Of a stretch of DNA of 34,825 nt, positions 1,513 through 28,780 are shown one piece after another. The stretch spans positions 1-34,825 of IMG/VR virus record IMGVR_UViG_3300022188_000030, one strand, 5' to 3'. The notes under the pieces are model-generated. The model saw only the letters and a list, made by a program, of their open reading frames with translations. It was not told where the DNA came from and searched no databases. Position 1 is the first letter of the stretch. The number at the start of each line of letters is the position of its first letter. The position numbers and the translations under genes were made by a program. This DNA comes from a virus.

Positions 1513-1599
1513 AAATCGGGGTGCATGGTGGACGATTGACGGAAAGCCTGCTATTGAAGTTTGCGCGTGAAATGAAAAATAGGGTTGAGGCTATTGGAG

Positions 1600-3462
1600 A
1601 TGACTAAGCAAGCGTATGACATTAAAAAATACCGCAATGGTGGAGAGGGGTTCATTCAATGGGTTGAAGAAAACGTGCGCTTTTCTATCGCACCACACGG
1701 CAGTGACGTAAAAGTTTGGTTGCCCGTGTCTGAATTCCCAGACAGTTATAAAGAGCTGTGGAAGCATCAACAGGAGCATTTAATTATTCCTGGGCTTGAA
1801 GTGGTTAACGGTGAGTTCAAGTATAGATTAATCATAATGATGTGGCCTCGCGGTGAAGGAAAATCAGTGCTTGCAAAGTTGATAACGCTTTGGAAATTTT
1901 TCTGCTTCCCGGAGTCAAGCTTGATCCTTGGCGCGAACAGCTTGGGCCAATCGAGATTCCACCATTTTGATGAGATGATTAAAACAATTTCGAATAGCCC
2001 AAGGCTTTTAATGCGAATTGGTGCAAACAACCTGAAGCAGAAACAAATAGAGCTTAGAGAAAAAAACGGAAAGGTTGTTTCTTTTATAAGGCCGGTGTCG
2101 TCATTTAGCGGAATTTACAGCGGGTGTTCAGGCTATGTATTCAACGAATTCCATCAGGCTTCTAATTTCAAATTCTTTACTGAAATTGACAGCTCAATGC
2201 GGGGGGTCAAGAATGGATTAGGGGTTATTGATACAACCGTTGCGCCGAAACATCATATCTTGTATCGACTATACCAAACCTGGTTGAAAGGCACTGACCC
2301 GTATTTGTTTTATTCATACCGGACCATCTCAGGCAAGGCCTCGGAGCTGTGGAATCCCGCGATAGATCAAAAATACCTGGATTCACAAAAAGAACGCCTC
2401 CCTTTTGGTGAATATGAAAGATTTTTTATCAATTCCTGGTCCGCCGGAGCCGAAAGAGTATTCACGGACGACATAATCGAGGCGAGCAACTTCATTGGGA
2501 TCGACAAGCAGGTGAACGTTCACCATGCGCTCATGGAAATCATTGAATCCAAGAACAAGCTGATCCGGCATGAGCAGAAGATTATTCGGCGCAACGCTGA
2601 CCCCGAGCTGGACGAAGTGAAGAACCCTGAGATTGTTTCGCAGCTTGAGTCACAGCACGCGGGACGTTTCGAGGAGATGGATCGTAGGTTATGGGCGGTA
2701 TCGGATGTGTATGAGTTGAGGGATAAGATGTCCGGGAAACCGGCGATGGCTACGGCTGACGACCTGAATAAGTTGAGCGAGGCGTATGATACTGACTGGG
2801 CGATCTTGGCGGGGATGGATAGGGCCGACCCCATGAAAACGCGAACGGCGGCTAAGACAATTGTGGTGGCGGTGGCCAAAGGACTAATGGGGAGCAGAAC
2901 AAACCCATTCCCAGTGGATGAAGCTGAAGCGCCACGGTATCTATATTGTCTGCTGCATCTTGCAAACATTGAAGACCATTCTGTTGAAGCGGTGCAGGAC
3001 ACTTTGATTGCTATCAAAACTGAGTTTGACGGGATTGACTCGTTCGGGACTGAAAGGTGGGGGGCGGTGGACCTTGTGAATTGGTGTGATGACAGTAAGA
3101 TTTCCGCCCATATCTATTACCCGACGTACTCACGGCAACGTACCATGTTCACGGAACTGTTTTTAGCATACAAGAACGGGCGGTTTAAAACGCCGCCTGT
3201 ATGGGTTAGGGGAAACAAAGAGGATGATATCCTGAAAGAAGAGGTTGGGGTGTTTGACCACAATCCGGCTGCTACCCAGGGGAAGTTCGGGAGCCCCGAG
3301 AAACGGGAGAAGTACGGCAGGCAGGACGATTGCATGTTTGCGCTCGGGAGTGCCATATACGGTGGGTTGAGTTTGGGGGTGGAAACGTTCAGGAAGCGGA
3401 AGGGCATGAAAAGCTTCGGGTTTTTTTATGGCGCCGGAGCATTAGAGGGGGATTACAGGTAG
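1600..3462 (+). CDS. terL: terminase large subunit (DNA-packaging ATPase-nuclease)
   Basis: This is the packaging motor that cuts concatemeric phage DNA and pumps it through the portal. The 620-residue length is usual for large terminases. The N-terminal ATPase has a Walker A motif WPRGEGKS (residues 82-89) and a Walker B-like strand GYVFNEF with catalytic Glu183; the usual Asp before it is Asn182. The C-terminal RNase H-like nuclease shows ILAGMDRAD (Asp407), an acidic strand AVDLVNWCDD (about 490-500) and DDCMFALG (about 574-581). ATG 1600 is preferred because GAGG lies 9 nt upstream; a TTG at 1585 would add five codons. It stands before the portal gene as in most siphophages. No small terminase subunit is recognisable upstream. 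Confidence 0.9.
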   Translation: MTKQAYDIKKYRNGGEGFIQWVEENVRFSIAPHGSDVKVWLPVSEFPDSYKELWKHQQEHLIIPGLEVVNGEFKYRLIIMMWPRGEGKSVLAKLITLWKFFCFPESSLILGANSLGQSRFHHFDEMIKTISNSPRLLMRIGANNLKQKQIELREKNGKVVSFIRPVSSFSGIYSGCSGYVFNEFHQASNFKFFTEIDSSMRGVKNGLGVIDTTVAPKHHILYRLYQTWLKGTDPYLFYSYRTISGKASELWNPAIDQKYLDSQKERLPFGEYERFFINSWSAGAERVFTDDIIEASNFIGIDKQVNVHHALMEIIESKNKLIRHEQKIIRRNADPELDEVKNPEIVSQLESQHAGRFEEMDRRLWAVSDVYELRDKMSGKPAMATADDLNKLSEAYDTDWAILAGMDRADPMKTRTAAKTIVVAVAKGLMGSRTNPFPVDEAEAPRYLYCLLHLANIEDHSVEAVQDTLIAIKTEFDGIDSFGTERWGAVDLVNWCDDSKISAHIYYPTYSRQRTMFTELFLAYKNGRFKTPPVWVRGNKEDDILKEEVGVFDHNPAATQGKFGSPEKREKYGRQDDCMFALGSAIYGGLSLGVETFRKRKGMKSFGFFYGAGALEGDYR

Positions 3463-5991: not shown

Positions 5992-7408
5992 GTTGGCGAA
6001 AGACGTTTTCAATACGCCATTAATGATCTTGCCTGACAAGTTGGATACAATCCTAAGCGTTATAGGCGACAGGATTGGCATGGAGTCCGTTCTCTCTGTG
6101 GGCGAAGCTGATTTGATGTCTATGGCTTCAGCTAATCGATCCGACGTGGAAAACTCCCCACGGATTTCTGTTATCCATGTTTACGGATCTCTCGTCAATA
6201 GGACTTATGGATTAAGCCCAGATTCCATGCTGCAAACCTATGACGACATCCGGAATGAGTTCAGGGCGGCCATGGATTCTGATTCCGAGGCGATCCTATT
6301 CGATATTAACAGCCCGGGCGGAACCGCTTCTGGGGTGTTCGACCTGGTCGACGAAATATACGAAGCCAGGTGCAGAGGTAGAAAGCGTATCTTCGCCATT
6401 GCTAATGAAGCTGCGTATTCCGCCGCTTATGCCATTGCCTCTAGCACAGGCAAGATATTCTTGTCTCGCACTGCGCACGTTGGTTCAATTGGAGTGATTG
6501 CAACGCATCAAGACAGGAGCGCTGCCAATGAAAAGGCGGGGATAAAGTATACCACAATTTTCAAGGGCGCAAGGAAAGCTGATTTAAGCCCTGATGCGCC
6601 ATTGTCTGATGAAGCCAAGGGCATGTTGGAAGCAGAGGTCGAAGACGTTTTCGATATTTTTGCTAAAACGACGGCGCGAAACCTTGGCATTCCTGTAGCT
6701 CAAGTCGTTGCTACTGATGCAGGGATCTTTATGGGTGACAAAGCGGTCCTCAAGGGGCTCGCGCATGAAGTCATAGCGGCCAACGATGTTCAAGCAAAAA
6801 TCTTGGCTGAACTAGATGCCAACCTGGATGAAAAGGAGGATCAAATGGACAAGAAAGCTGAAACGAAATTAGAGAAAAAGGAGGTGAAAATTATGAACGC
6901 ACAAGAATTGAAAAAAGCACATCCCGAACTCGTAGCCGAGATTGAAAGTTCGCTTGAGCAGAAGCTTACTGCGAAGTTTGACGGTGAAAAATCCGCGATG
7001 ACCGCTGAAAATGGGTCCCTTAAAGAATCCGTATTGAGGCTGGAAAAATCGGAAGCGATCCGGCAGGTGCGGGAAGTTAAATCCGAGGCCGCCGGTATTT
7101 GGACCAGTGTTCTAACCGGGAGCGACGTGCCCAAGAGGTTCCATGACAAGGTGAAAGCCCACGTATCGCATGAAAAGTTTATCCAGGACGGTCTTTTGGA
7201 TTGTACCGGGTTTACCGAAGCCGTCAAAGCCGAGGTGGAAGACTGGGAAACCCGTGGGGCTACATCGAAGGTCATGGGGACTGGGTTCTCTTCGAAAGAT
7301 GTTGAGGGTGAAGGGGCCGCGAAACTGAAAAAAGAAGAAGCGGACGACGAGGCGTTAGCCAATAGCCTGTTTGAAGCTTCAGGTGGAACAAGAGAGGAGG
7401 TGAAATAA
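5969..7408 (+). CDS. S49-family prohead protease fused to scaffold domain
   Basis: A 479-residue two-part protein like lambda gpC. Residues 65-280 are an SppA/ClpP-fold serine protease of family S49: DINSPGG oxyanion loop (112-118), nucleophile Ser151 in AAYSAAYAIASS, a SIGVIATHQD strand, and a lysine in FKGARKADL (Lys203) at the position of the catalytic base. From about 285 the sequence becomes charged and coiled-coil-like, ending DDEALANSLFEA, typical of a scaffold. GTG 5969 is chosen because AAGGAG lies 7 nt upstream; the ATG at 5873 would add 32 mainly basic residues inside the portal gene and has no SD. It matures the prohead by degrading scaffold. Confidence 0.85.
   Translation: MEKIVLHRLAKDVFNTPLMILPDKLDTILSVIGDRIGMESVLSVGEADLMSMASANRSDVENSPRISVIHVYGSLVNRTYGLSPDSMLQTYDDIRNEFRAAMDSDSEAILFDINSPGGTASGVFDLVDEIYEARCRGRKRIFAIANEAAYSAAYAIASSTGKIFLSRTAHVGSIGVIATHQDRSAANEKAGIKYTTIFKGARKADLSPDAPLSDEAKGMLEAEVEDVFDIFAKTTARNLGIPVAQVVATDAGIFMGDKAVLKGLAHEVIAANDVQAKILAELDANLDEKEDQMDKKAETKLEKKEVKIMNAQELKKAHPELVAEIESSLEQKLTAKFDGEKSAMTAENGSLKESVLRLEKSEAIRQVREVKSEAAGIWTSVLTGSDVPKRFHDKVKAHVSHEKFIQDGLLDCTGFTEAVKAEVEDWETRGATSKVMGTGFSSKDVEGEGAAKLKKEEADDEALANSLFEASGGTREEVK
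6893..7408 (+). CDS. nested in-frame scaffold protein (Nu3-like)
   Basis: Inside the protease gene, ATG 6893 is preceded by AAAGGAGGTGA, one of the strongest SD sites in the window, in the same reading frame. Translation from it gives a 171-residue charged protein (MNAQELKKAHPELVAEIESS...) with long predicted helices (Glu/Lys heptads about 5-70). A second in-frame ATG at 6845, with AAGGAGG 5 nt upstream, would give a 187-residue form. This mirrors lambda, where the scaffold Nu3 starts within gene C. The product would nucleate capsid assembly in excess over protease and then be degraded. Confidence 0.7.
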   Translation: MNAQELKKAHPELVAEIESSLEQKLTAKFDGEKSAMTAENGSLKESVLRLEKSEAIRQVREVKSEAAGIWTSVLTGSDVPKRFHDKVKAHVSHEKFIQDGLLDCTGFTEAVKAEVEDWETRGATSKVMGTGFSSKDVEGEGAAKLKKEEADDEALANSLFEASGGTREEVK

Positions 7409-7409
7409 T

Positions 7410-8096
7410 ATGCCATTAGGACAAACACCATACGTTTTTCGGGGTGGGCAGGAAGACTTGAAAAGGCTTTTCTACTCTGACCCTGACAAAGCATTCGCAA
7501 GAGCGATTACCATCCCGGCAGGTTACGGTACTGTAAAAGCCGGAGCTGTTATGGGAATCATCACGGAGAGTACGAATAGGGTTGGTCAGTATGTGCCTTA
7601 TACTGGTCTTGATGCTGCTGGCAACGTGGCGGCAGGGATCGACAACCTGTTCGGAGCTGCGTTTCTAACCGCGAATCCGACCACTGGGACCGAAGGGCAA
7701 GTGACGATGGAAGACAGTTACAAATTTGCCGTTGGGGATCACCTGGTAGCGGGTGACAGCGACCTTTCAAATACGGACCTTGGCGCGATTACCGCTATTG
7801 ACCGGACCACATACACCCATATTGCCGCCATTACGGTAACAAACGCGTTCGGTTCTGAGACCCTGGCAAAGGGCGCAGTCATCGCCATCCAGAGCGCTAC
7901 CGGGAGCCCGTATGTGGCTGCAAATGGTATTTTGAAAGCAGCAGTGGATACCGGAACAGGCGAAAACGCAAAGGGTGGGCAGGGAGTTATTATCATCAGT
8001 AACGCCATGCTGTATTCTGCAAGCCTGTATAATTGGAATGCGGACGTTGTTACTGATCTTGGTGGGTCTGACAGCTCACCGTATTACATCTTTTAA
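7410..8096 (+). CDS. capsid decoration protein
   Basis: This 228-residue protein lies between scaffold and major capsid gene, the place of lambda D, and has AGGAGGTGA upstream. The sequence is rich in beta strands, Gly, Ala and Thr, with PAGYGTVKAGAVMGI near the N-terminus. This resembles head-decoration proteins that bind capsid three-fold sites and stabilise the shell against DNA pressure. Residues 115-160 (VGDHLVAGDSDL through LAKGAVIAI) look like a second beta module, making it longer than lambda gpD (110 residues). No signal or membrane segment is present. Assignment rests mainly on synteny plus composition. Confidence 0.75.
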   Translation: MPLGQTPYVFRGGQEDLKRLFYSDPDKAFARAITIPAGYGTVKAGAVMGIITESTNRVGQYVPYTGLDAAGNVAAGIDNLFGAAFLTANPTTGTEGQVTMEDSYKFAVGDHLVAGDSDLSNTDLGAITAIDRTTYTHIAAITVTNAFGSETLAKGAVIAIQSATGSPYVAANGILKAAVDTGTGENAKGGQGVIIISNAMLYSASLYNWNADVVTDLGGSDSSPYYIF

Positions 8097-8119: not shown

Positions 8120-9346
8120 ATGCCTATAGGAATCAATGACATTTCGGCACTTAGACTTACGGTGCTGAACAAGCTGGTTACGAAGTATTTGACGCCCCCG
8201 AATCTGATTCTCAGCAAGATGTTTAAAGCCTTGAATTATGAGTCGGACAACATTGAATGGGAGTCCCAGATTGGTAGCAGGGGGTTAACCCCGTTCGCTG
8301 CGGAAGATGCAGAGAGCCCGGATGCCGCAGTCCCTGGAATCGGTGAGAACTCGGCACACGCGGCGTTTTGGAAAGAGCGGACCTTTTTTGGCTCGTCTTT
8401 CTTGAACAACATTCGTGAACCCGGGACTGATCGAAAATATCAAAAGGCAGCCAGAACTCTTGGGAACCAAGTTCGAAATCTCAGCAACAGAAGTTATCGC
8501 AGAAAAGAGTGGATGCTGGCGCAAATGCTTTGCAATGACGGATTTACGTATAAGGATAAGAACGGGGTCTATATTTCCCTGGATTACGGAATCCCGGATG
8601 ATAACAAGGTTACTCTCGCCGCTGATTACAAGTGGGACGACGGGACTAAGCGGAATATCGCTGAAAATATTTTTGATGCGAAACTCCTTGTAAGTAATGC
8701 AAACGCAGGCGTTTTGTCTGATGCAATTTTTACGACAGAAATCCTTAAACTCATGATCTTTGATGATACCATCCAAACGCTATTGTCGAAGTCTAACTAT
8801 GGTCAGGGCGATTTGTTTGCAAACCCAACCAGCGTAATCGGTAGCTTGATTGGCATTGCCAACATGCATCTTTATGATGAGGCTTACCAGATCCGCGCAT
8901 GGCTGACATCAGCATTGGCATCCGGCGCAGGTCCGCATACGGTGTCTGTTGACACAACGGTCGATTTTGAAGTGGGCGGAACGCTTACTGTTCTGGATAC
9001 ATCTGCGAAAACGACTGAAACCTTAACCATTACGGCGGTAAACACCAACGCCGGGACTCTTACGGCGACAGGAACGCTTTCGTCTTCATATAAGGCGACT
9101 GATGACTACGTTTACATGACCAAGAAGTTCATCCCCACAGACAAGTTTACTATGTGGGCGAACAGCGTAGACGGAGAACCCATTGCGGAATTCATGAACG
9201 CACCGCATGAGTTGGCAAGAAAATGGGGCCAGCAGATTGATCGCTGGGAAAGAAAAGACCCGGACGGAATCTTTGTGCGAGTAGAAGACAAGGGCCTTCC
9301 CGTTCTTTATCATGAAGACGCTGTCTGTCAGCTAACTGTAACTTAG
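8120..9346 (+). CDS. major capsid protein (lambda gpE-like)
   Basis: The main shell protein, 408 residues, after AAAGGAGGTGA. The N-terminal part (DISALRLTVLNKLVTKY, LTPFAAEDAESPDA) and the C-terminal DKFTMWANSVDGEP ... HELARKWGQQIDRWERKDP match the layout of the lambda gpE branch of HK97-fold capsid proteins. Between about residues 273 and 335 a Thr/Val-rich stretch (HTVSVDTTVDFEVGG through DDYVYMTKKF) looks like an inserted beta-sandwich domain, probably exposed on the capsid surface, as insertion domains are in other phages. Upstream decoration and protease genes fit this class. Confidence 0.88.
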   Translation: MPIGINDISALRLTVLNKLVTKYLTPPNLILSKMFKALNYESDNIEWESQIGSRGLTPFAAEDAESPDAAVPGIGENSAHAAFWKERTFFGSSFLNNIREPGTDRKYQKAARTLGNQVRNLSNRSYRRKEWMLAQMLCNDGFTYKDKNGVYISLDYGIPDDNKVTLAADYKWDDGTKRNIAENIFDAKLLVSNANAGVLSDAIFTTEILKLMIFDDTIQTLLSKSNYGQGDLFANPTSVIGSLIGIANMHLYDEAYQIRAWLTSALASGAGPHTVSVDTTVDFEVGGTLTVLDTSAKTTETLTITAVNTNAGTLTATGTLSSSYKATDDYVYMTKKFIPTDKFTMWANSVDGEPIAEFMNAPHELARKWGQQIDRWERKDPDGIFVRVEDKGLPVLYHEDAVCQLTVT

Positions 9347-9358
9347 GGGGGTGATTTT

Positions 9359-9829
9359 ATGCAACAAGGACGTGGACCATTCCCAAGCCCTGCCTTTAAA
9401 AAGCAGCTTGCGGCCAATGATCCGTCCCCGATGATGGATACGATATCCGGTGAAGTGACCGCAAGCTCACCGGGGCGTATTCTTGGGGCGGTAAATGTCG
9501 CTGGGAAGGTATCTGATGTTTGGCTTTCCGTCGGTGCCAGCGGCAAGGACGACAGTGCTACGCTGTCCATGACCGTGGATGTCAAAATCAATGGGACTTC
9601 GTGCCTTACCACTCCGCCTGTCATTGCACATGTAAGCGGGGAGGCCAGCACGAATAAGACCACTAAGGTTTCTGGTGATACCGGCATAACTCAGCGTGTT
9701 TTGGACTCGGACAATAACGATGTGTCCCCGGGGGATGTTATTACTTATGACATGACCTTGACCAGGACCGCTTCGCCCACAACCGAGATGGATGCAGTTG
9801 CGGTTGTCGTGGAATTTGAACCCGCTTAA
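9359..9829 (+). CDS. beta-rich structural protein after the capsid gene
   Basis: A 156-residue protein starting after GGGGGGTGA. It is Thr/Ser/Val/Asp-rich with alternating hydrophobic strands (VSDVWLSVGASGKDDSATL, TMTVDVKINGT, AVAVVVEFEPA), typical of a single beta-sandwich. One Cys only; no signal peptide. Its place directly downstream of the major capsid gene suggests a second decoration or head-fibre protein exposed on the capsid. I cannot name the family with certainty. Confidence 0.55.
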   Translation: MQQGRGPFPSPAFKKQLAANDPSPMMDTISGEVTASSPGRILGAVNVAGKVSDVWLSVGASGKDDSATLSMTVDVKINGTSCLTTPPVIAHVSGEASTNKTTKVSGDTGITQRVLDSDNNDVSPGDVITYDMTLTRTASPTTEMDAVAVVVEFEPA

Positions 9830-9844
9830 CAATAGGAGCAATCG

Positions 9845-10228
9845 ATGAAAATCGAAATACTGAAGACGTTGAAAGGATCTACCACCTGGAGGAAGGGGAC
9901 TGTGTTCGACGACACTGTTTCCCCGATCCCGGGTGATATCCTTAGAGAGGTTGATAGCGGATCAAACGCTGTCAAAATGATCGCAACCGAGAAACCAATT
10001 GTTGCGGTTGAACCCGAAATTGAGATCAAAGAGACTGCGGAAGAGCCATGCTCACCAAACCAAGGATTGTCGGAGATGGTGGAAAGAACAATGGCAATGG
10101 CAAAACCACAAGAGAATACTTCACCAGCTCATCCAGAGAAGGAAGAGCCGTTTAAATGCACTAAATGCGATTGGACTGGAAAAACTGAAGCAGCCTTAAA
10201 ACGCCATAATACCATGAACCATAGGTGA
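9845..10228 (+). CDS. head-region protein with C-terminal C2H2 zinc finger
   Basis: This 127-residue protein has three parts. Residues 1-50 (MKIEILKTLKGSTTWRKG, VFDDTVSPIPGDILREV) form a small beta domain as seen in many short phage head-completion proteins. Residues 50-100 are acidic and Pro/Glu-rich, probably flexible. The last 25 residues are a classical C2H2 zinc finger: C105-x2-C108-x12-H121-x4-H126, with Trp110 and Leu118 as core residues. It follows AGGAG. A finger tethered by a linker suggests DNA or protein contact at the portal vertex, but that is inference. Confidence 0.65.
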   Translation: MKIEILKTLKGSTTWRKGTVFDDTVSPIPGDILREVDSGSNAVKMIATEKPIVAVEPEIEIKETAEEPCSPNQGLSEMVERTMAMAKPQENTSPAHPEKEEPFKCTKCDWTGKTEAALKRHNTMNHR

Positions 10229-10688: not shown

Positions 10689-11315
10689 ATGAGCGTTGGC
10701 GTAGACATAAAAGAAGCCCTCGAAGAAGTGGGCGTGGCCTATACGATTTTACGCGACAGTGGGGATGTAGAAGGCGAATACGGGCTGCTTGAAGCATCAA
10801 GCCAGACAACCAAGCCGCTTACTTTAGAGCATTTCCGCAAAAGCATGATCCCTTACGACACTGAGTTAGCAACCGGGGATGTTGTCTCTTTTGACGTAAT
10901 CGATGAAACGTTTCTTGCAGCGAATATGATCCCTGAGTTGTTTGAAAATGCCGTCGCTCATTATGACGCTGTTTTTTATAAGTGCAACATCAATAGCGGT
11001 GAGTTAATGCGACCCAGCGGCGAAACGTGGGACGATCCTTTGGACCAATACCACAAGGAAACTGAGTGGGAAACGATCAAGACAGGCATAAACGCCATGC
11101 AGGTAGCGGCCCTTTACGGTAGTGGCTTGGAAGCGGAAGAAGAAATCGCTTTGCTGGGGTTGAATAAGAACGAAGTCTTGATTCAACATTCTATTGGTGC
11201 CCAGGTGCTTGATCGTTGGCAACCGACCTCTGGCGAATATTACCAGGTAAGTGTAATTGAAACGAGACGATACCCGAACATTGACGTTTTAATAATTGAG
11301 GAAGACCACAGATAA
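10689..11315 (+). CDS. probable head-completion or stopper protein
   Basis: A 208-residue acidic protein immediately coupled to the previous gene (TAAATG). The start MSVGVDIKEALEEVGVAYTILRDSG resembles phage head-closure proteins, followed by a beta-rich middle (YDTELATGDVVSFDVIDETFL). The end (VLDRWQPTSGEYYQVSVIETRRYPNIDVLIIEEDHR) has the form seen in stopper proteins that seal the connector. Closing the head-protein block before the sugar-modification cassette, it is likely the last connector component. Assignment is by order and overall look. Confidence 0.5.
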   Translation: MSVGVDIKEALEEVGVAYTILRDSGDVEGEYGLLEASSQTTKPLTLEHFRKSMIPYDTELATGDVVSFDVIDETFLAANMIPELFENAVAHYDAVFYKCNINSGELMRPSGETWDDPLDQYHKETEWETIKTGINAMQVAALYGSGLEAEEEIALLGLNKNEVLIQHSIGAQVLDRWQPTSGEYYQVSVIETRRYPNIDVLIIEEDHR

Positions 11316-11336: not shown

Positions 11337-13376
11337 ATGAAGAAGCGAGTTTTATTCGTGGGTGAAAACCCAATCGGAACAACTGGAGTCTCAAACATGT
11401 TAGCCGCGATGCTCAAGCGACTGGATATGGATAGGTACATCCATGCATGTTTTGTGGCGGATAATGTGGACCCGACAAAGATTCTTTTCGATCCATTGCC
11501 TTATACAATGGTGAACGCTTCCATGGCTGATGACTATTGGGGAAACAGAAGGCTCGTTTCTCTAATTCAAAGCTCCGACTTTGATTACCTCTGCATGGTG
11601 GGAATCGACTTCTGGCGATACATGCCAGCTTGGAATTCGATAAGGCAGCTACGAGACGCAAAGAAGTTCAAGTGGATAGCCATATTCCCATACGACTTGT
11701 GGAAGGTCCAACCATCCTGGATAAAGTACCTGAACGCCTTGGACTATCCATGTGTTTATTCTCAATACGGCTACGAGGCGCTTAAGCACTACGCGCCGCA
11801 TGTTCGATATTATCGACCAGAATTGAATGGGTGGAAAACGTTTATCCCGATGAAGGATAAAATGGCTGCACGGAAAGAAGTGTTTCCGAATGTACCCGAC
11901 GGTAAGATTATTTTCGGGTTTATTGGAAAAAACCAAATCCGAAAGTCCCCTGAAATTCTTATCAAAGCGTTTTTCGAAGCCAAGAAAGAGAATCCGGATA
12001 TCGTCCTATACTTGCACACTGAAATGGATCACATCTATAACTTGACGCAAATCGCTCAGGACTGTGGTGCTAAAGATGGGGATCTGGTTTCAAAGCAACA
12101 GGGCGTATCTTACGACAGGGATAAAATGCCGACTGTCTACAACGCGCTGGACTGTGTAATCAATTGCAGTATGCAGGAAGGGCTTTCGTGGACGCCCCTT
12201 GAGGCCATGGCGTGTGGTGTGCCGGTGATTGCGTCCGACACTACGGCCCAAACGGAACTCATCGCTGGGGTAGGAGAGATTGTTCCCTGCAACAACCTCT
12301 CATTCGTCCCGATGACAGGCGAAAACGGCCCGGTCACGATTGAATCACGAGCGTGCGGGGTTCCCGAGGTCGCTGAGTCCATTCTGGAAATAGCTGGAAA
12401 CAAAAACCTGCGGGAAGCCATGAGTATAAAGGGATTGCAGCGGGCAAAAGAATGGTTTGATGGAACGGATGATATCAATGATCTGCTGGCTGTTGCGGGC
12501 AAAAGAATCAAGCCGACCAAGAAAATCCAGGCTGTTTTGTTCGCCCAGCACTCTTCTGCAGGCGATGTGCTTATGACGACCCAGTGTTTTAAGGGGATCA
12601 AGGAGCGCCATCCTGATATGCCATTGGTTTACATGACGCAGAAGGTTTTCGCAGGGGTTGTTTTCGGGAACCCGTACATTGATGAAATCATTGAATGGGA
12701 CGAGCGGCACCTAAAGGCATACGAGGTTGTCTATAACCCACACGGGGACCATATTCTCAAAGGAGGGTTCAATAACCTGGATGAGACCCTTCACAGTATG
12801 TACCCGTATTTCACGAACGTCAAAGCGGACGAGATGTTTATTGATCCAGTGAAACCGAAAATTCATCCAGTCCAATTATTATCCATTTCCATGGGGGCAA
12901 CAGTTGAAGAGTACATCGTCGTCCACACAACCGGTGGCAACAAGAAATATCGGTCCTACCCGCACATGGATATGGTTTTGAAAGATGTTGACCTACCCGT
13001 AATCCAACTCGGAGGTCCTGGCGATTTGAGATGTAAATCTGACCTGGATCTTTGTGGCAAACTAACCTGGCAAGAATCTGCCTGGGTGATGAAAAACGCC
13101 AAGGCCGCTGTTGTGGTTGACAGTTTCCTGTCTCATTTGGCTGGTGCTGTTGGAACAGATACTGTGGTCATTTACGGGCCAGCGCCCGCCCGCGTTGTGG
13201 CCCCTAAAGCCCAACATGGCTCTAAAATTGTAAATATTCAACCGGATATGTTGGCGGTATGTAAGAGCATGTCCCATTGTTGGGGTGCAAACCCTACATG
13301 CCAATCTCCTTGTATCAATAGCATTTCCCCGATGAAAATAAACAAAGAACTGCTAAGGCTATTGAATGAAAAATGA
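11337..13376 (+). CDS. bifunctional glycosyltransferase (GT4 + GT9)
   Basis: A 679-residue fusion of two GT-B enzymes, starting after CGGAGG. Residues 1-385 are a GT4-type retaining transferase: an N-terminal Gly loop (NPIGTTGVSNML), the second Rossmann start GFIGKNQIRKSPE (about 194-206), and the sugar-nucleotide binding E-x7-E motif EGLSWTPLEAMACG (about 281-294). Residues 400-679 are a GT9 (heptosyltransferase-like) domain: HSSAGDVLMTTQCFKG, then VVDSFLSHLAGAVGTDTVV and YGPAPARVVAP, the conserved GT9 C-terminal block. The C-terminus has a Cys cluster. It probably adds two sugars in succession to a phage or host acceptor. Its place inside the structural operon suggests expression with virion genes. 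Confidence 0.85.
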   Translation: MKKRVLFVGENPIGTTGVSNMLAAMLKRLDMDRYIHACFVADNVDPTKILFDPLPYTMVNASMADDYWGNRRLVSLIQSSDFDYLCMVGIDFWRYMPAWNSIRQLRDAKKFKWIAIFPYDLWKVQPSWIKYLNALDYPCVYSQYGYEALKHYAPHVRYYRPELNGWKTFIPMKDKMAARKEVFPNVPDGKIIFGFIGKNQIRKSPEILIKAFFEAKKENPDIVLYLHTEMDHIYNLTQIAQDCGAKDGDLVSKQQGVSYDRDKMPTVYNALDCVINCSMQEGLSWTPLEAMACGVPVIASDTTAQTELIAGVGEIVPCNNLSFVPMTGENGPVTIESRACGVPEVAESILEIAGNKNLREAMSIKGLQRAKEWFDGTDDINDLLAVAGKRIKPTKKIQAVLFAQHSSAGDVLMTTQCFKGIKERHPDMPLVYMTQKVFAGVVFGNPYIDEIIEWDERHLKAYEVVYNPHGDHILKGGFNNLDETLHSMYPYFTNVKADEMFIDPVKPKIHPVQLLSISMGATVEEYIVVHTTGGNKKYRSYPHMDMVLKDVDLPVIQLGGPGDLRCKSDLDLCGKLTWQESAWVMKNAKAAVVVDSFLSHLAGAVGTDTVVIYGPAPARVVAPKAQHGSKIVNIQPDMLAVCKSMSHCWGANPTCQSPCINSISPMKINKELLRLLNEK

Positions 13377-14217
13377 CTCGAAAAATATATTCTATGTCTA
13401 TGCTTATCTCGATCCCAGAAAGCCTGGATTGTACAAGTACGGTAGAATTGAATTCGAATATGAGCCGTTTTACATTGGAAAAGGTTCTGGTGCAAGGGAC
13501 ATGAAATTCCATGAACACACAACAAGGTTTGTCAGAAGTTTGATTGTTTGCTTGAAAAGAAAAGGATTACAGCCAGTAGTGTCAAGGGTGATTGATTCCA
13601 CTACAGAAAAAGAAGCGTTTGCAAAAGAAAAATTTTTAATAAAATCGATAGGCAGGAGAGACAAGAACGAAGGACCTTTGACAAACATGACAGCTGGGGG
13701 TGAAGGAAGCTCTGGTACAATTTGTTCGGATGAATTACGAGAGATAAGATCCAAAAACATGACTGGAGAAAAACATCACCAGTATTGGTTAGGTAAAACT
13801 TTCTCAAAAGATCATGTCAGAAAATTCAAGGAGTCAGTAAGAAAAACTATCAGTGCTCCTGGTTACATCGATCCTAGGATAGGCGTTAAGCTTTCGAAAG
13901 AACGCAGGCTTAAGATGTCTAAGAGCCGTACCGGGTTAAAGAGAACGTTAGCAACAAGGATGAAAATGTCGAAGGCCCAGGAAGGACGCAAGCCCTCTGT
14001 ATCCTGCATAGAACGTGGCATTGAATGCCGTGCGAAGCATTACCTTGTTGTATCTCCTGGGAAGGACACTCGCATTGTGTTTAATCTTACAAAATTTTGC
14101 AAAGCGAATGGGCTTTGCCCTAGTAACATGTTAGCTGTTGCCAGCGGTAAGTGTTCTAGCTCTAAGGGGTGGGTGTGCAGTAAATTGGTCGCAACGAATT
14201 TGGAGGGCTTGTTATGA
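13366..14217 (+). CDS. GIY-YIG homing endonuclease with NUMOD3 repeats
   Basis: A 283-residue free-standing homing endonuclease. The N-terminal nuclease domain has a variant GIY motif (YVYAYLD, residues 10-16) and FYIGKG (35-40), then a helix with GARDMKFHEH and a later Glu in KEKFLIKSIG. Residues about 135-210 hold NUMOD3-type DNA-binding repeats (HHQYWLGKTFSKDHVRKF, SKERRLKMSKSRTGLK, TRMKMSKAQEGRK). The last 60 residues (FNLTKFCKANGLCPSNMLAV) form a helical DNA-binding module seen in related phage endonucleases. Its start overlaps the glycosyltransferase stop by 11 nt. Such elements insert between genes and spread by cutting allele-free phages; the host genes remain intact. Confidence 0.88.
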   Translation: MKNDSKNIFYVYAYLDPRKPGLYKYGRIEFEYEPFYIGKGSGARDMKFHEHTTRFVRSLIVCLKRKGLQPVVSRVIDSTTEKEAFAKEKFLIKSIGRRDKNEGPLTNMTAGGEGSSGTICSDELREIRSKNMTGEKHHQYWLGKTFSKDHVRKFKESVRKTISAPGYIDPRIGVKLSKERRLKMSKSRTGLKRTLATRMKMSKAQEGRKPSVSCIERGIECRAKHYLVVSPGKDTRIVFNLTKFCKANGLCPSNMLAVASGKCSSSKGWVCSKLVATNLEGLL

Positions 14218-14289
14218 TGGACAAGACGATGGATGCTCTCGTAGCAATGTAGAAGTCAGAAATGGATGCGTTTATATCGAGGACGAACA

Positions 14290-15003
14290 ATGATTATTCT
14301 AATGCAATCACTAAATGAAGAAAAAATGGTAGATCCTGTCATTGGCGATTTCCATGATCTTGAGTGGGTATCCCGGATTATTGTGATCGATGGTGGGAGC
14401 CAGGACTTGACGGTTCATAAACTCAACCGGTGGTCAAAATGCGAGGTTTACAACCACTTCTATGACCGTGGATACCATGCGGCGCAAAGCATGCAGCGGA
14501 ACATATCCCTGACGTACATCCCAATGGACGAAATTTGTTTTATATTGGATTTTGATGAAAAGATGTCAGATTCCCTAAAAGATTTTCTAAAAGATGTAGA
14601 TGAAAATGGAATGCCAATGGACGCTGATGTAGTGTGTGTTTCTCGGGTGTCTTATGAATCAATGCGGTACGATGGTTCGCCATTTGCGCTATTGGACGAT
14701 AAAGGGTTTCCGGTTCCGTCGCACACGATAGGGGAGTATCCAGATTGGCAAGCACGATTAATTAGACGAACACCAGAAATGTTTTTCATAAACTCCCCGC
14801 ATCATGTTTTGATTGGCCCCAAAAAGCAGATCACGAAAGACGATACGGACATCATTCATTACCACGGGAAAGCAGACGAAAGGGACAGAGAAAATATCGA
14901 AATCCTCTGGGCAACCACCCAGTCAAGACGAAAAGAGCTCGGGTTGACGCCTGATGTTTTTGAATCAAGATTAAAGCCGGAATTCGCAAGGTACGGAAGA
15001 TGA
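14290..15003 (+). CDS. GT2-family glycosyltransferase
   Basis: A 237-residue inverting GT-A glycosyltransferase. It starts MIILMQSLNEEKMV, the usual first strand with SLNEE, then IIVIDGGSQDLT (the nucleotide-binding loop) and ILDFDEKM (about residues 84-91), whose D-F-D is the metal-binding D-x-D. The C-terminal part has DWQARLIRR, a common acceptor-side block of this family. ATG 14290 is preferred over 14266 because GAGG lies 8 nt upstream. The homing endonuclease separates it from the GT4-GT9 gene, and 70 nt of non-coding debris precede it. It probably extends the same glycan as its neighbour. Confidence 0.8.
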   Translation: MIILMQSLNEEKMVDPVIGDFHDLEWVSRIIVIDGGSQDLTVHKLNRWSKCEVYNHFYDRGYHAAQSMQRNISLTYIPMDEICFILDFDEKMSDSLKDFLKDVDENGMPMDADVVCVSRVSYESMRYDGSPFALLDDKGFPVPSHTIGEYPDWQARLIRRTPEMFFINSPHHVLIGPKKQITKDDTDIIHYHGKADERDRENIEILWATTQSRRKELGLTPDVFESRLKPEFARYGR

Positions 15004-15059
15004 AAACAGTAATCCGAATGCCTTATGAAAAAGTGCATGGTTGGTTGTGGGTGGATTAA
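15000..15059 (+). CDS. possible 19-residue peptide
   Basis: ATG 15000 overlaps the previous stop as ATGA and encodes a 19-residue peptide ending GWLWVD. The overlap style matches real genes here, but the length is too short to judge. It may be the remnant of a gene between the glycosyltransferase and the methyltransferase; no other frame of 15060-15105 is coding. Confidence 0.25.
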   Translation: MKTVIRMPYEKVHGWLWVD

Positions 15060-15105
15060 TGGTGCAAACGATGTTTGTTGGCACCCATTGAAGGGATAGT
15101 GAAAA

Positions 15106-16176
15106 ATGAATAAATTCGTATCAGACATATGCGAGCAGCTGCCAGGGCAGAAAATCAAGGATATCGTTTTTAACAGTGCGTTGAACCCGGCGCTTGATGG
15201 GCATGGGGACAGCGCTGAGATATTGAAGCACTTTTTGCTCAGAAAACCAGCAAAACACGTTCTTGAAATAGGCACCTATAATGGACTCGCGGCCGCTTTC
15301 ATGGCACAATTTGCCGAGAAAGTCACGACGATAGACATTGAAGACCATCCATTGAAGAAAAGCCTATGGCACACGATGGGGGTATCTGAAAAGATTGATG
15401 CTCACCTGGTTACTACAGAAAAAGAAAAAAAGGCGATTATCGATAGCGTTGATTTTGATGTTGCGTTTGTGGACGGTAATCATTTTGGCGAATACCCACA
15501 ATCTGATTTTGAAATGGTGAAGCACTGTGGGAGGGTAATTCTACATGACTACCACGCTGATTTCCCTGATGTTGTAAAATTTGTCGATAGCCTTGACCCG
15601 AATACCCGGGAGATCAATGGACTGTTCGCTTACCGGGAAGATTCTCTCTCACCGAAGGTCATGTTCCCGGAATTTGAGCTTAATTTAGATTATGTCAAAA
15701 AATATCTCGTCGGAGAAGGCCTTGACATGGGTTGTGGTTGTTGCCCCTTAATCAAGCCCAACTGTACCCATGTTGACCATTCTCCGCAACCAGGAGCGGT
15801 TGAGCTCGTTAAGAATGCGTTTGTGTATGCGGACGCTGTAAGCTTCAGGCCCACGCATAAAGTGGATTATGTATTTTCATCTCACATGGTTGAAGACTTG
15901 CCAACGGAAGACGAGATTGTGAAGTGCCTTCTTGGGTGGGCAACCACTTTAAGAAAAGGTGGCTTTATCGTTCTATTGCTACCGGATATGCAAGCGGGCA
16001 GGTATCCCACAGTGGAAGAAGGCGGTAATCCATCCCACTGCGTCAACGTTGGGGTACAATTTATCAATAGCATCGTCTCAAAGTTAAAAGGCCTGGAGCT
16101 GGTTCAGATGGATACCATCCCACACGAAGTGGGTTGCACTATTGACGTTGTGTTTAAAAAAAGGAATGCCAAGTGA
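15106..16176 (+). CDS. tandem two-domain SAM-dependent methyltransferase
   Basis: A 356-residue protein with two class I methyltransferase domains in a row. Domain 1 (about 1-185) has the SAM-binding motif HVLEIGTYNGLAA (about 51-63), acidic ribose contact TTIDIEDHP, then FVDGNHFGEYPQSD and RVILHDYH, typical of the Methyltransf_24 group often found with sugar transferases. Domain 2 (about 200-356) starts GLDMGCGCCPL (about 206-216), followed by VDYVFSSHMVEDL and KGGFIVLLLPD, the layout of small O-methyltransferases. Its place between glycosyltransferase genes suggests methylation of a sugar, but a protein substrate is not excluded. Both domains keep their glycine loops, so both could be active. 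Confidence 0.8.
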   Translation: MNKFVSDICEQLPGQKIKDIVFNSALNPALDGHGDSAEILKHFLLRKPAKHVLEIGTYNGLAAAFMAQFAEKVTTIDIEDHPLKKSLWHTMGVSEKIDAHLVTTEKEKKAIIDSVDFDVAFVDGNHFGEYPQSDFEMVKHCGRVILHDYHADFPDVVKFVDSLDPNTREINGLFAYREDSLSPKVMFPEFELNLDYVKKYLVGEGLDMGCGCCPLIKPNCTHVDHSPQPGAVELVKNAFVYADAVSFRPTHKVDYVFSSHMVEDLPTEDEIVKCLLGWATTLRKGGFIVLLLPDMQAGRYPTVEEGGNPSHCVNVGVQFINSIVSKLKGLELVQMDTIPHEVGCTIDVVFKKRNAK

Positions 16177-16550
16177 TTACGCTATTTGTCGTGCAAAGTT
16201 GCGCCGATGCGAAAGACCCCACTGAAACCATTGCTTCTTTCGGGTCCACGGCCTCTGAGGTCCACCAGGTTGCGAATTTAGGGGAAGTCAACAGGACGGA
16301 CAGGATAAACGGTTGGTACGCAGTCATGTACGATAACGAGCGTATCGATGAGCGATTACTGGAAGGGTTGAAAGTGTTTATCGAATGTTCAGATGCAGAT
16401 ACATTGGTATTGTTCAAGACAGGCGATAGGGTTTTCAAATCTCCGAGGATATTCAGGCGACATATTACGCTACAGAATAATTCGCTTATGCCGGAGCAGG
16501 ATGTCAAATTTGAGACCGTATTGAACGGGTGGATTCATGATATCCATTAA
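16173..16550 (+). CDS. small protein resembling a GT-A fragment
   Basis: A 125-residue protein starting at a GTG that overlaps the methyltransferase stop (GTGA). INGWYAVMYDNERIDERLLEGL followed by DADTLVLFK and PRIFRRHITL has the order of the metal-binding loop region and the RIFRR block of GT2 enzymes, but the N-terminal nucleotide-binding loop is poorly conserved and the protein is half the usual length. It could be a degenerate or accessory glycosyltransferase subunit. Its 3' end overlaps the tail completion gene by 14 nt. Function is inferred only from these weak similarities and its neighbours. Confidence 0.45.
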   Translation: MITLFVVQSCADAKDPTETIASFGSTASEVHQVANLGEVNRTDRINGWYAVMYDNERIDERLLEGLKVFIECSDADTLVLFKTGDRVFKSPRIFRRHITLQNNSLMPEQDVKFETVLNGWIHDIH

Positions 16551-17061
16551 AGTAAATCAGGCGGATGTAACACGTATCGTAACCGCATTAAAGCGGATCG
16601 AAACCACGGTGAAGGTTCAGGTCCCGGACACGATGCAGTTCAAGTGCGCTACGGATTATTACCAGCTTGTGATGGAAAATATCATGAAGCGTTCAAGCCC
16701 TAACCCTGCGTATTCAGAGAGATACGGCGGATGGAAAAAAAAGTACGGATGGCAAGGCTACCCGTCACCGTGGAAACTTCGCGTGGATCTTGTTAAAAGC
16801 CTCGGGTCATATCGGCTTGGGGACGGGTATCTCGGTGGGGTCCAACCTGGTGCCATGGATTCCGGAGGGAAATCGTGGCATGGGAAAGGGAAAGCCGGGC
16901 CAAAAGGCAATTCCAAATCCATCGAGATGTACGGCAGGGTAGGAGAATTTGGAAAGAAAAAAAGGCCCGTGTTTACACCAACCATGGAAGAATATGCAAA
17001 AGACGGCTGGCTGAAGCGCGGGGATGAAATGCTAAAACGAATCGAGGCGGACTGGCGATGA
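16537..17061 (+). CDS. tail completion/neck protein (HK97 gp10-like)
   Basis: A 174-residue basic protein. The start (MISIKVNQADVTRIVTALKRI) is a strand-helix typical of HK97 gp10-like neck proteins. The middle has a Gly/Lys-rich loop (SWHGKGKAGPKGNSKS). Near the end RPVFTPTMEEYAKDG matches the common pattern of a strand plus RP-F-P-x2 before the last helix in this family. It joins head to tail together with the terminator protein. It marks the return to virion assembly genes after the sugar cassette. Confidence 0.65.
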   Translation: MISIKVNQADVTRIVTALKRIETTVKVQVPDTMQFKCATDYYQLVMENIMKRSSPNPAYSERYGGWKKKYGWQGYPSPWKLRVDLVKSLGSYRLGDGYLGGVQPGAMDSGGKSWHGKGKAGPKGNSKSIEMYGRVGEFGKKKRPVFTPTMEEYAKDGWLKRGDEMLKRIEADWR

Positions 17062-27274: not shown

Positions 27275-28780
27275 ATGGGTACGCTTTCAGGTTGGGGTAA
27301 AAGACTAACCTTCACCTTAGATAAAGACCAGATTGACGCGGCTCTTTCCGGGTTTCCCGTTCTGGTTTATCTGTCAGCGGCTTCCGGGATTGGCGATGTT
27401 GACGTTTCATGCTTTTTTGACGAGCTGGGGTCTAACGCCAATCGGAAGAAAGTGGCCTTTACATCCTCTGATGGCACAACAGAGTTGTATGCTGAAATTG
27501 AACGGTTTGATTACGCCTCTGAAAAAGCCTGGTATCACGTTAAAGTTCCATCTGTTTCCGCTACCGTTGATGAAATCATTTACATTTATTATGATTCTGA
27601 TCATGCTGACAATACATCATATATAGGAGATACAACCGATGCAGTAGCGCATAACACTTGGGATTCTAATTTTAAACTCGTAATGCACATGGCGCAAGAT
27701 CCTAATGGAGATGTTGCAGATGCCATAAAGGATTCAACGAGTAACGCTAATGACGGGACGCCCGGTGGCTCGATGACCACTGCTGATTTTGTGGATGGCA
27801 AGATTGGCAAAGGTATCGAGTTTGACGGGGTGGATGATAAAACTACAGTTCCCGCTAGTTCGGAATTGAATCCAGAGGAGGGTGATTTCACTGTAGAGGT
27901 TGTTTGTAAAATATCAGATGTTACGCAGTACAGAACGCTTGTAACAAATCGGGAAGATAACGCCGATGGAGAGGGTTTTATATTTGCCACGACCGTTACA
28001 GACGGTCAACCGTACATGCGGTTAGAAGACCATGGTGGAACCACATTTTATGCAATTGCCGGTGTTGATATCTCTGATGGAATTTATAGGCACTTGGCAG
28101 CGGTTAGAGATGTTGGGGAAGGTAAAGTTTCTTTATTTATCAATGGAGCTGTTAGCGGCACACCCGCTGAAGATACTACAACCCAAACAGTTAATAGTGC
28201 TGACGACTTGGTTATCGGGCAGAACGTACCGAGTGCTGCGTCCGCGTATGTTTGGCCTGACGTTATAGACGAAATTAGAATTTCAAAAACTGTCCGCGCG
28301 CCCGCATGGATAAAAGCCACACACCACAGTCTTTGGGATACGCTGGGTACGTTCGGGGCTGAAGAAAACATTGGTGGCGAAACAATAGTCGCCACCCCGT
28401 TCACAGGCATCTTCTCGTTAACCGGTGCCGTAAAAGGTGGGCAAAAAGTAACAGCCACCCCCTTCACGGGCACCTTCTCGTTAACCGGTGCCGTAAGGCA
28501 CATCCCAAGGGCGCAAATATTAGGCGCAATCAGTTTAATTAACAGCCTTAAAGTGGGCTCGACCCTGTCCCTGGTAAACAGCCTGAACGCCGTGTTCAGC
28601 GGGGATATAACCTTGGTCCATGATATCCTGTCAAAGATCGAAGGTAGCCAGACGCTCAGGAACGATATAGAAAACCTTGCCAAGTTCAATGATACACTGA
28701 GTTTAATCAACCACATCCTGGACGCTGATTCAGGGATCACGCAAGGGGATTATTACTTCTTGAAAAACCACGGGATATAG
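27275..28780 (+). CDS. tail protein with DUF2341 and LamG-like lectin domains
   Basis: A 501-residue probable host-binding or tail-tip protein. Residues about 15-115 match DUF2341: FPVLVYLS, DVSCFFDELG and IIYIYYDSDHADN. Residues about 140-365 are a LamG/concanavalin A-like jelly roll: GKIGKGIEFDGVDDKTTVPA, DFTVEVVCKIS, YRHLAAVRD, KVSLFINGAV and DEIRISKTVRAPAWIKA, its closing motif. Two copies of ATPFTG-x-FSLTGAV follow at about 373 and 394. The last 80 residues hold five near-15-residue repeats (TLSLVNSL, ITLVHDIL, TLSLINHIL). LamG domains usually bind glycans, so binding of host surface sugars is inferred. Confidence 0.75.
   Translation: MGTLSGWGKRLTFTLDKDQIDAALSGFPVLVYLSAASGIGDVDVSCFFDELGSNANRKKVAFTSSDGTTELYAEIERFDYASEKAWYHVKVPSVSATVDEIIYIYYDSDHADNTSYIGDTTDAVAHNTWDSNFKLVMHMAQDPNGDVADAIKDSTSNANDGTPGGSMTTADFVDGKIGKGIEFDGVDDKTTVPASSELNPEEGDFTVEVVCKISDVTQYRTLVTNREDNADGEGFIFATTVTDGQPYMRLEDHGGTTFYAIAGVDISDGIYRHLAAVRDVGEGKVSLFINGAVSGTPAEDTTTQTVNSADDLVIGQNVPSAASAYVWPDVIDEIRISKTVRAPAWIKATHHSLWDTLGTFGAEENIGGETIVATPFTGIFSLTGAVKGGQKVTATPFTGTFSLTGAVRHIPRAQILGAISLINSLKVGSTLSLVNSLNAVFSGDITLVHDILSKIEGSQTLRNDIENLAKFNDTLSLINHILDADSGITQGDYYFLKNHGI
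28391..28496 (+). repeat. 63-bp tandem repeat in the LamG-like gene
   Basis: GCCACCCCGTTCACAGGCAT (28391 on) is repeated 63 bp downstream as GCCACCCCCTTCACGGGCAC (28454 on). TTCTCGTTAACCGGTGCCGT is identical in both. It encodes ATPFTG-x-FSLTGAV twice. Few base differences indicate recent duplication or strong constraint. Confidence 0.85.

Follow-up and report, generated by a model that had tools for sequence, protein, structure and literature searches.

A putative virion-glycosylation locus with a conserved frame and an exchanged middle between the head and tail genes of a phage group

The DNA analysed here (the window) is an entire IMG/VR record of 34,825 bp. Five accessory ORFs lie on its + strand between putative connector and tail genes, inside a run of same-strand genes that extends from upstream of the capsid gene to past the tape measure gene. 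These five genes (the cassette) and the other features dealt with below are as follows.

8903-9118, + strand: Ser/Thr-rich insert of the major capsid protein (residues 262 to 333), candidate acceptor by composition
9359-9829, + strand: beta-sandwich protein encoded after the capsid gene, possible head decoration protein (AlphaFold2 model)
10689-11315, + strand: putative head-tail connector protein, 208 amino acids, left boundary; precedes GT4-9 in every cassette-bearing relative
11337-13376, + strand: GT4-GT9 fusion glycosyltransferase (GT4-9), 679 amino acids, first cassette gene (Pfam, PHROGs)
13366-14217, + strand: free-standing GIY-YIG/NUMOD3 homing endonuclease (PHROG 314, 2.5e-12)
14266-15003, + strand: GT2 glycosyltransferase, 245 amino acids, usually the second conserved cassette gene (PF13704, E value 2.4e-4)
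15106-16176, + strand: double SAM methyltransferase, 356 amino acids (PF01596/PF13578 and PF08241)
16173-16550, + strand: orf125, predicted miniature GT-A protein, 125 amino acids, last cassette gene (AlphaFold2 model)
16537-17061, + strand: putative tail-completion protein, right boundary, overlapping orf125 by 14 bp (role assigned from position)
27275-28780: large lectin-like protein among the tail genes (Laminin_G_3)
L064:4936-6291, 7067-7756 and 9250-9894, in a sister phage: Ser/Thr-tailed capsid, connector, and tail-tube genes, given as an example

From the connector gene through GT4-9, the endonuclease, GT2, the methyltransferase, and orf125 to the tail gene, the successive spacings are 21, -11, 48, 102, -4, and -14 bp. 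The upstream flank holds the genes for the capsid protein (Phage_cap_E) and the putative connector, and the downstream flank those for putative tail proteins, the tail tube, and the tape measure. All five ORFs were thus found where the original prediction had placed them, on the + strand with head genes on one side and tail genes on the other. The connector protein matched no Pfam or PHROG family, and its role is assigned from its position. A scan for promoters and terminators gave nothing beyond chance level. Two adjacent tRNA genes, Met-CAT and Thr-TGT, lie upstream of the head genes (positions 750 to 903); the Thr tRNA is curious given the Thr-rich virion proteins in this phage group. In the collection of isolated phages the capsid protein had a single match, at 25% identity, and the tail tube none, so the window represents a phage group without close isolates there. 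The GT2, methyltransferase, and orf125 proteins of the window had no match among the isolated phages.

Both halves of the predicted GT4-GT9 fusion were matched in Pfam (GT4, PF00534, E value 2.6e-15; GT9, PF01075, E value 2.6e-8). Residues E281, D410, D595, and H600 were invariant in 16 relatives, and of the active-site motifs, E289 of the GT4 half was nearly invariant and DSFxSHLAG of the GT9 half was conserved. The dN/dS ratio of 0.07 to 0.08 indicates strong purifying selection. Profile matches of this protein included heptosyltransferase structures and that of the chlorovirus protein B736L. The call of a GT2 enzyme also held, since the Pfam match, itself sub-threshold, is joined by a DFDE motif invariant in 12 relatives. 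The endonuclease and glycosyltransferase assignments were backed by PHROGs. The 356-residue protein turned out to carry two methyltransferase domains by Pfam, as had been proposed; the second of them is a separate gene in relatives, and L007:7405-7950 encodes that domain alone.

The last ORF, described originally as a glycosyltransferase-like fragment, had no Pfam match, yet its AlphaFold2 model, built from a 15-member alignment (pLDDT 93.3), showed a small GT-A arrangement. The best PDB match was the S-glycosyltransferase ThuS (Z 12.6, rmsd 2.4, 121 of 125 residues aligned) and the second solved match the S-glycosyltransferase SunS (Z 11.5), the two alignments spanning 121 to 122 of the 125 residues; nucleotidyltransferases of related fold gave a Z of 10. 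Relative to the GT-A region that was matched, the protein lacks about 45 residues, and the place of its DXD motif is degenerate, reading mostly Y-D-[DN]-E, with E56 alone invariant as read from the alignment. On this model we predict with high confidence that orf125 has a miniature GT-A fold; it may be a very small enzyme, or else a partner without catalytic activity of its own.

Using the GT4-9, capsid, and tail-tube proteins as queries, we collected about 70 loci belonging to this phage group. In every locus carrying it, the GT4-9 gene lies directly after the connector gene or one small ORF away. Fourteen blocks from the viral collection were complete between connector and tail gene, ranging from 5.2 to 16.4 kb, and that of the window is the smallest of these glycosyltransferase-bearing versions (a still shorter block occurs in L097). 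In all 14, GT4-9 comes first, a GT2-type gene next, and orf125 at the end, after which the homologue of the tail-completion gene comes in nearly all cassettes. A small ORF separates GT4-9 from the GT2-type gene in four cassettes, the endonuclease holding this spot in the window; the GT2 slot is filled by a divergent GT2 in G009 and G025, one extra ORF follows orf125 in G016, and orf125 of G009 was picked up by tblastn plus profile. Besides the complete cassettes, orf125 is present in L097 and L098 and in some sister phages devoid of GT4-9. In L097 it directly follows GT4-9, and this pairing without the other cassette genes suggests a joint role of the two.

When 84,980 genomes of bacteria and archaea were scanned with two conserved peptides, which distant homologues could escape, GT4-9 turned up twice (L097 and L098), both times in phage stretches of metagenome-assembled bins. 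Neither in these genomes, within the reach of the peptide patterns, nor in the viral collection was GT4-9 found outside phage contigs of the group or away from the connector site. Matches above the cut-off to the GT4 and GT2 families were confined to the cassette block in the longer contigs that bear it. The block stands beside structural genes in every relative seen, as anticipated; a block at unrelated positions tied to envelope loci, which would have spoken against the original prediction, was not encountered within the limits of the peptide search.

The homing endonuclease had been counted as a member of the block. Its domains and its sporadic presence at the site are those of a GIY-YIG homing endonuclease, with the NUMOD3 match just at the Pfam cut-off, the GIY-YIG Pfam score below it, and PHROG 314 matched at 2.5e-12. 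Among complete cassettes only the window has the gene between GT4-9 and GT2, L007 retains an approximately 75-bp remnant of its 5' end, and homologues lie at other places in L021, L028, L055, and G012. Judging from this distribution, the endonuclease is a mobile passenger outside the glycan function. We also considered L007 as the empty site of the endonuclease, which the degraded remnant rules out. Further interruptions were observed in the group: about 1 kb of extra sequence, such as an intron, intein, or endonuclease gene would add, interrupts the homologue of the window gene at 1585-3462 (L022:1658-4510); an HNH-like ORF of 270 amino acids is inserted directly 3' of the capsid gene in L008 (5152-5964) and likewise in L013; and in G015 (L085:1408-4872) an insertion of two large genes separates the decoration-like gene from the connector gene, one of the two being 41% identical to the last ORF of the window (33778 onward).

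We then determined how the cassette genes diverge relative to the capsid protein. GT4-9, GT2, and orf125 diverged in step with it (Mantel rho of 0.73, 0.60, and 0.70, respectively), as did the flanking genes; for every gene the correlation with the tail tube was weaker. The content of the middle of the cassette did not track the capsid (mean Jaccard index of 0.09, rho of -0.14), and phage pairs with 80 to 88% identical capsid proteins had from none to 56% of their middle genes in common. The double methyltransferase is the sole tailoring gene in the cassette of the window, whereas relatives have up to about 20 other middle genes, encoding GT4, GT2, and GT8 enzymes, nucleotide-sugar epimerases, DegT aminotransferase with GNAT, polysaccharide pyruvyltransferase, carbamoyltransferase, LicD-like proteins, cytidylyltransferase (CTP-transferase), many methyltransferases, and B12-type radical SAM proteins. 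The methyltransferases are present or absent together with the sugar-tailoring genes, a pattern that points to sugars as their more likely substrates; methylation of proteins, the targets first proposed, is not supported. Hydrophobic segments of the membrane-protein type are almost absent from the cassette proteins, a few of which reach borderline hydropathy. No multi-pass membrane protein was found in the cassettes by hydropathy, nor, in the representatives scanned, a Pfam match to the flippase or the polyprenyl-linked membrane glucosyltransferase expected of a gtr-like O-antigen-modifying locus; one cassette (G010) encodes a DUF2061 membrane protein.

An exposed insert of the capsid protein had been guessed as a target of the cassette, and this guess gained support. 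The Ser plus Thr content of the insert is 27 to 35% in all 19 cassette-bearing phages vs 16 to 25% in all 13 cassette-lacking ones, while the rest of the capsid protein differs little in this respect between the two sets. The insert is thus a candidate acceptor; it is found in all clades, which excludes it as a structure specific to cassette phages, and its composition alone differs. Since the cassette-bearing L097 and L098 group with the sister clade in the capsid tree, on long branches, the tree requires at least two changes of cassette state, so the link with insert composition is not purely the history of one clade. The correlation rests on about two changes in the tree, that is, on few independent events. 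The protein encoded at 9359-9829 (AlphaFold2 pLDDT 84) gave jelly-roll-like matches, including the cement protein of phage KHP40 (Z 6.4), none of them decisive. It is present in cassette-bearing genomes where the region is covered and missing in L097. We rejected it as an obligate acceptor: its perfect co-occurrence with the cassette in a first set lies within a single clade of the capsid tree, and L097 has GT4-9 and orf125 without it, so it now counts as a candidate only.

GT4-9 was absent from the six sister genomes read in detail. The tail gene of L064 begins directly after the connector gene, making this an empty site; L055 and L058 keep orf125 with no glycosyltransferase gene beside it; and in L051 (5084-7273) the site is occupied by a 729-amino-acid protein that contains a Ser/Thr stretch and may be a surface protein, with orf125 coming next. 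The capsid, connector, and tail-tube proteins of the sister clade bear C-terminal tails that are rich in Ser/Thr or consist almost only of them (L051, L053, L055, L058, L064, and L065). These mucin-like tails are about 10 to more than 60 residues long, several of them ending in AP. A composition window scan detected them in the sister clade and in none of the virion genes of cassette-bearing loci, and a literature search for Ser/Thr-only tails on phage virion proteins found nothing. The two long sister contigs have glycosyltransferase clusters away from the cassette site, in G027 beside putative lysis genes. A more distant clade showed neither Ser/Thr tails nor a GT4/GT2 match in contigs of up to 49 kb, which, like those of the sister clade, may be incomplete. 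We discarded the idea that such tails mark glycosylated phage proteins in general: in phage Che8, capsid and tail proteins reported to be glycosylated have no Ser/Thr-rich ends, so Ser/Thr composition is a weak acceptor marker.

Taken together, these results make it fairly probable, in our judgement, that the cassette is a virion-glycosylation locus with a conserved core and swapped, hypervariable tailoring genes. The original idea that a late-operon block modifies the virion is supported in the main, by its position beside structural genes, less the methylation of proteins and the membership of the endonuclease; late-gene position is no proof of the substrate. As to enzyme activity, acceptor, glycan structure, and benefit, we infer the following. 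GT4-9 and GT2, perhaps with orf125, would work in the cytoplasm during head and tail assembly and use nucleotide sugars to put a conserved core glycan on an exposed virion protein, the capsid insert being the leading candidate and the 9359-9829 protein the second. The middle genes would make special sugars or cap the glycan, and their exchange between phages would give each lineage a different coat. The sister clade presents a virion link by another route, with Ser/Thr tails, a glycosyltransferase cluster elsewhere (in the two long contigs), and no GT4-9 at the site.

O-antigen-modifying phages alter the surface polysaccharide of their host, and the cassette enzymes could remodel that of their own host, either in lysogeny or at a late stage of infection, so that superinfection is blocked or adsorption altered. 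LicD, pyruvyltransferase, DegT, and epimerase do make the middle of the cassettes resemble loci for O-antigen and capsule, the heptosyltransferases of LPS core synthesis belong to GT9, and there is the DUF2061 protein of G010. We nevertheless regard such a function as unlikely, given the cassettes' lack of a flippase- or polymerase-like membrane protein, their very few hydrophobic segments, the fixed place that they keep among the virion genes throughout the group, and the sister clade, which bears Ser/Thr tails on virion proteins instead. Less likely again is that the sugar goes to a tail or receptor-binding protein rather than to the head, tuning adsorption, which would still be virion glycosylation. 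The cassette adjoins tail genes too, the Ser/Thr tails of the sister clade are also found on the tail tube, and the lectin-like protein lies among the tail genes; the composition signal, however, sits in the capsid insert, and the candidate tail-fibre genes are more than 10 kb from the cassette. Glycosylation of phage DNA as protection from restriction is very improbable: some glycosyltransferases encoded by viruses are known to hypermodify DNA (Pyle et al. 2024, as cited in PMC12619734), but the thymidylate-synthase family (PF00303), looked for as a pyrimidine hydroxymethylase or similar partner enzyme, was absent from nine contigs of up to 82 kb, possibly incomplete, the tailoring repertoire is typical of surface polysaccharides, and the genes sit among virion genes.

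Within the favoured reading, virion glycosylation, we advance more tentatively, and with more doubt than belief, that a single phage family has changed between two means of coating its virions with sugar. One would be the core encoded in the operon (the GT4-9 fusion plus the miniature GT-A protein) with serotype-like, swapped tailoring genes acting on the capsid insert, and the other mucin-like tails on capsid, connector, and tail tube served by a distant glycosyltransferase cluster.

Bacterial O-antigen and capsule loci have conserved ends and a horizontally exchanged middle of sugar-tailoring enzymes. The phage cassette likewise has fixed ends and an exchanged tailoring middle, but no flippase or polymerase was found in it and it lies among virion genes. 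Among unrelated isolates, phiPsal1 and Mae-JY09 have GT4 genes between capsid and neck/adaptor genes, that of phiPsal1 accompanied by a methyltransferase and GT2, and S-CBS4 has a GT4 gene between portal and capsid. These three differ from the window's group in that identity is 24 to 29% over the GT4 half only, no GT9 half was found, the cassettes are small, and their function is putative. To our knowledge, phage virion glycosylation has been shown so far in a few mycobacteriophages only; what is new here is the core-plus-swap cassette. In Che8, Corndog, and Myrna, phage glycosyltransferases modify the capsid and tail tube, as summarised in PMC12363180 and PMC12619734 (Freeman et al. 2023). 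The Che8 glycosyltransferase locus is also a short operon, but it lies at the far end of the genome, its proteins have no detectable similarity to those of the cassette, and the part of the Che8 genome examined showed no swapped tailoring block. A place beside virion genes, which all complete cassettes have at the same connector/tail site, is usual for virion-glycosylation loci but not required, the Che8 genes being distant. In the capsid glycosylation of chloroviruses (PBCV-1 Vp54, A111/114R), virus-encoded multidomain glycosyltransferases assemble a conserved glycan core whose decorations differ from virus to virus (PMC7826918). The solved-structure matches of GT4-9 include B736L; the differences are a eukaryotic virus, an N-linked glycan, other glycosyltransferase domains, and no operon in common.

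If the proposed function is true, phage particles can carry lineage-specific, fast-changing sugar coats across a whole uncultured family, and the question arises which force selects for the change of coat: grazers, host defences, or adhesion to surfaces. The cassettes would also form a natural series in which the presence of particular sugar-tailoring genes could be matched to glycan structure. Should the two-way switch hold as well, phage glycan "serotypes" would be a rapidly evolving surface like bacterial O-antigens.
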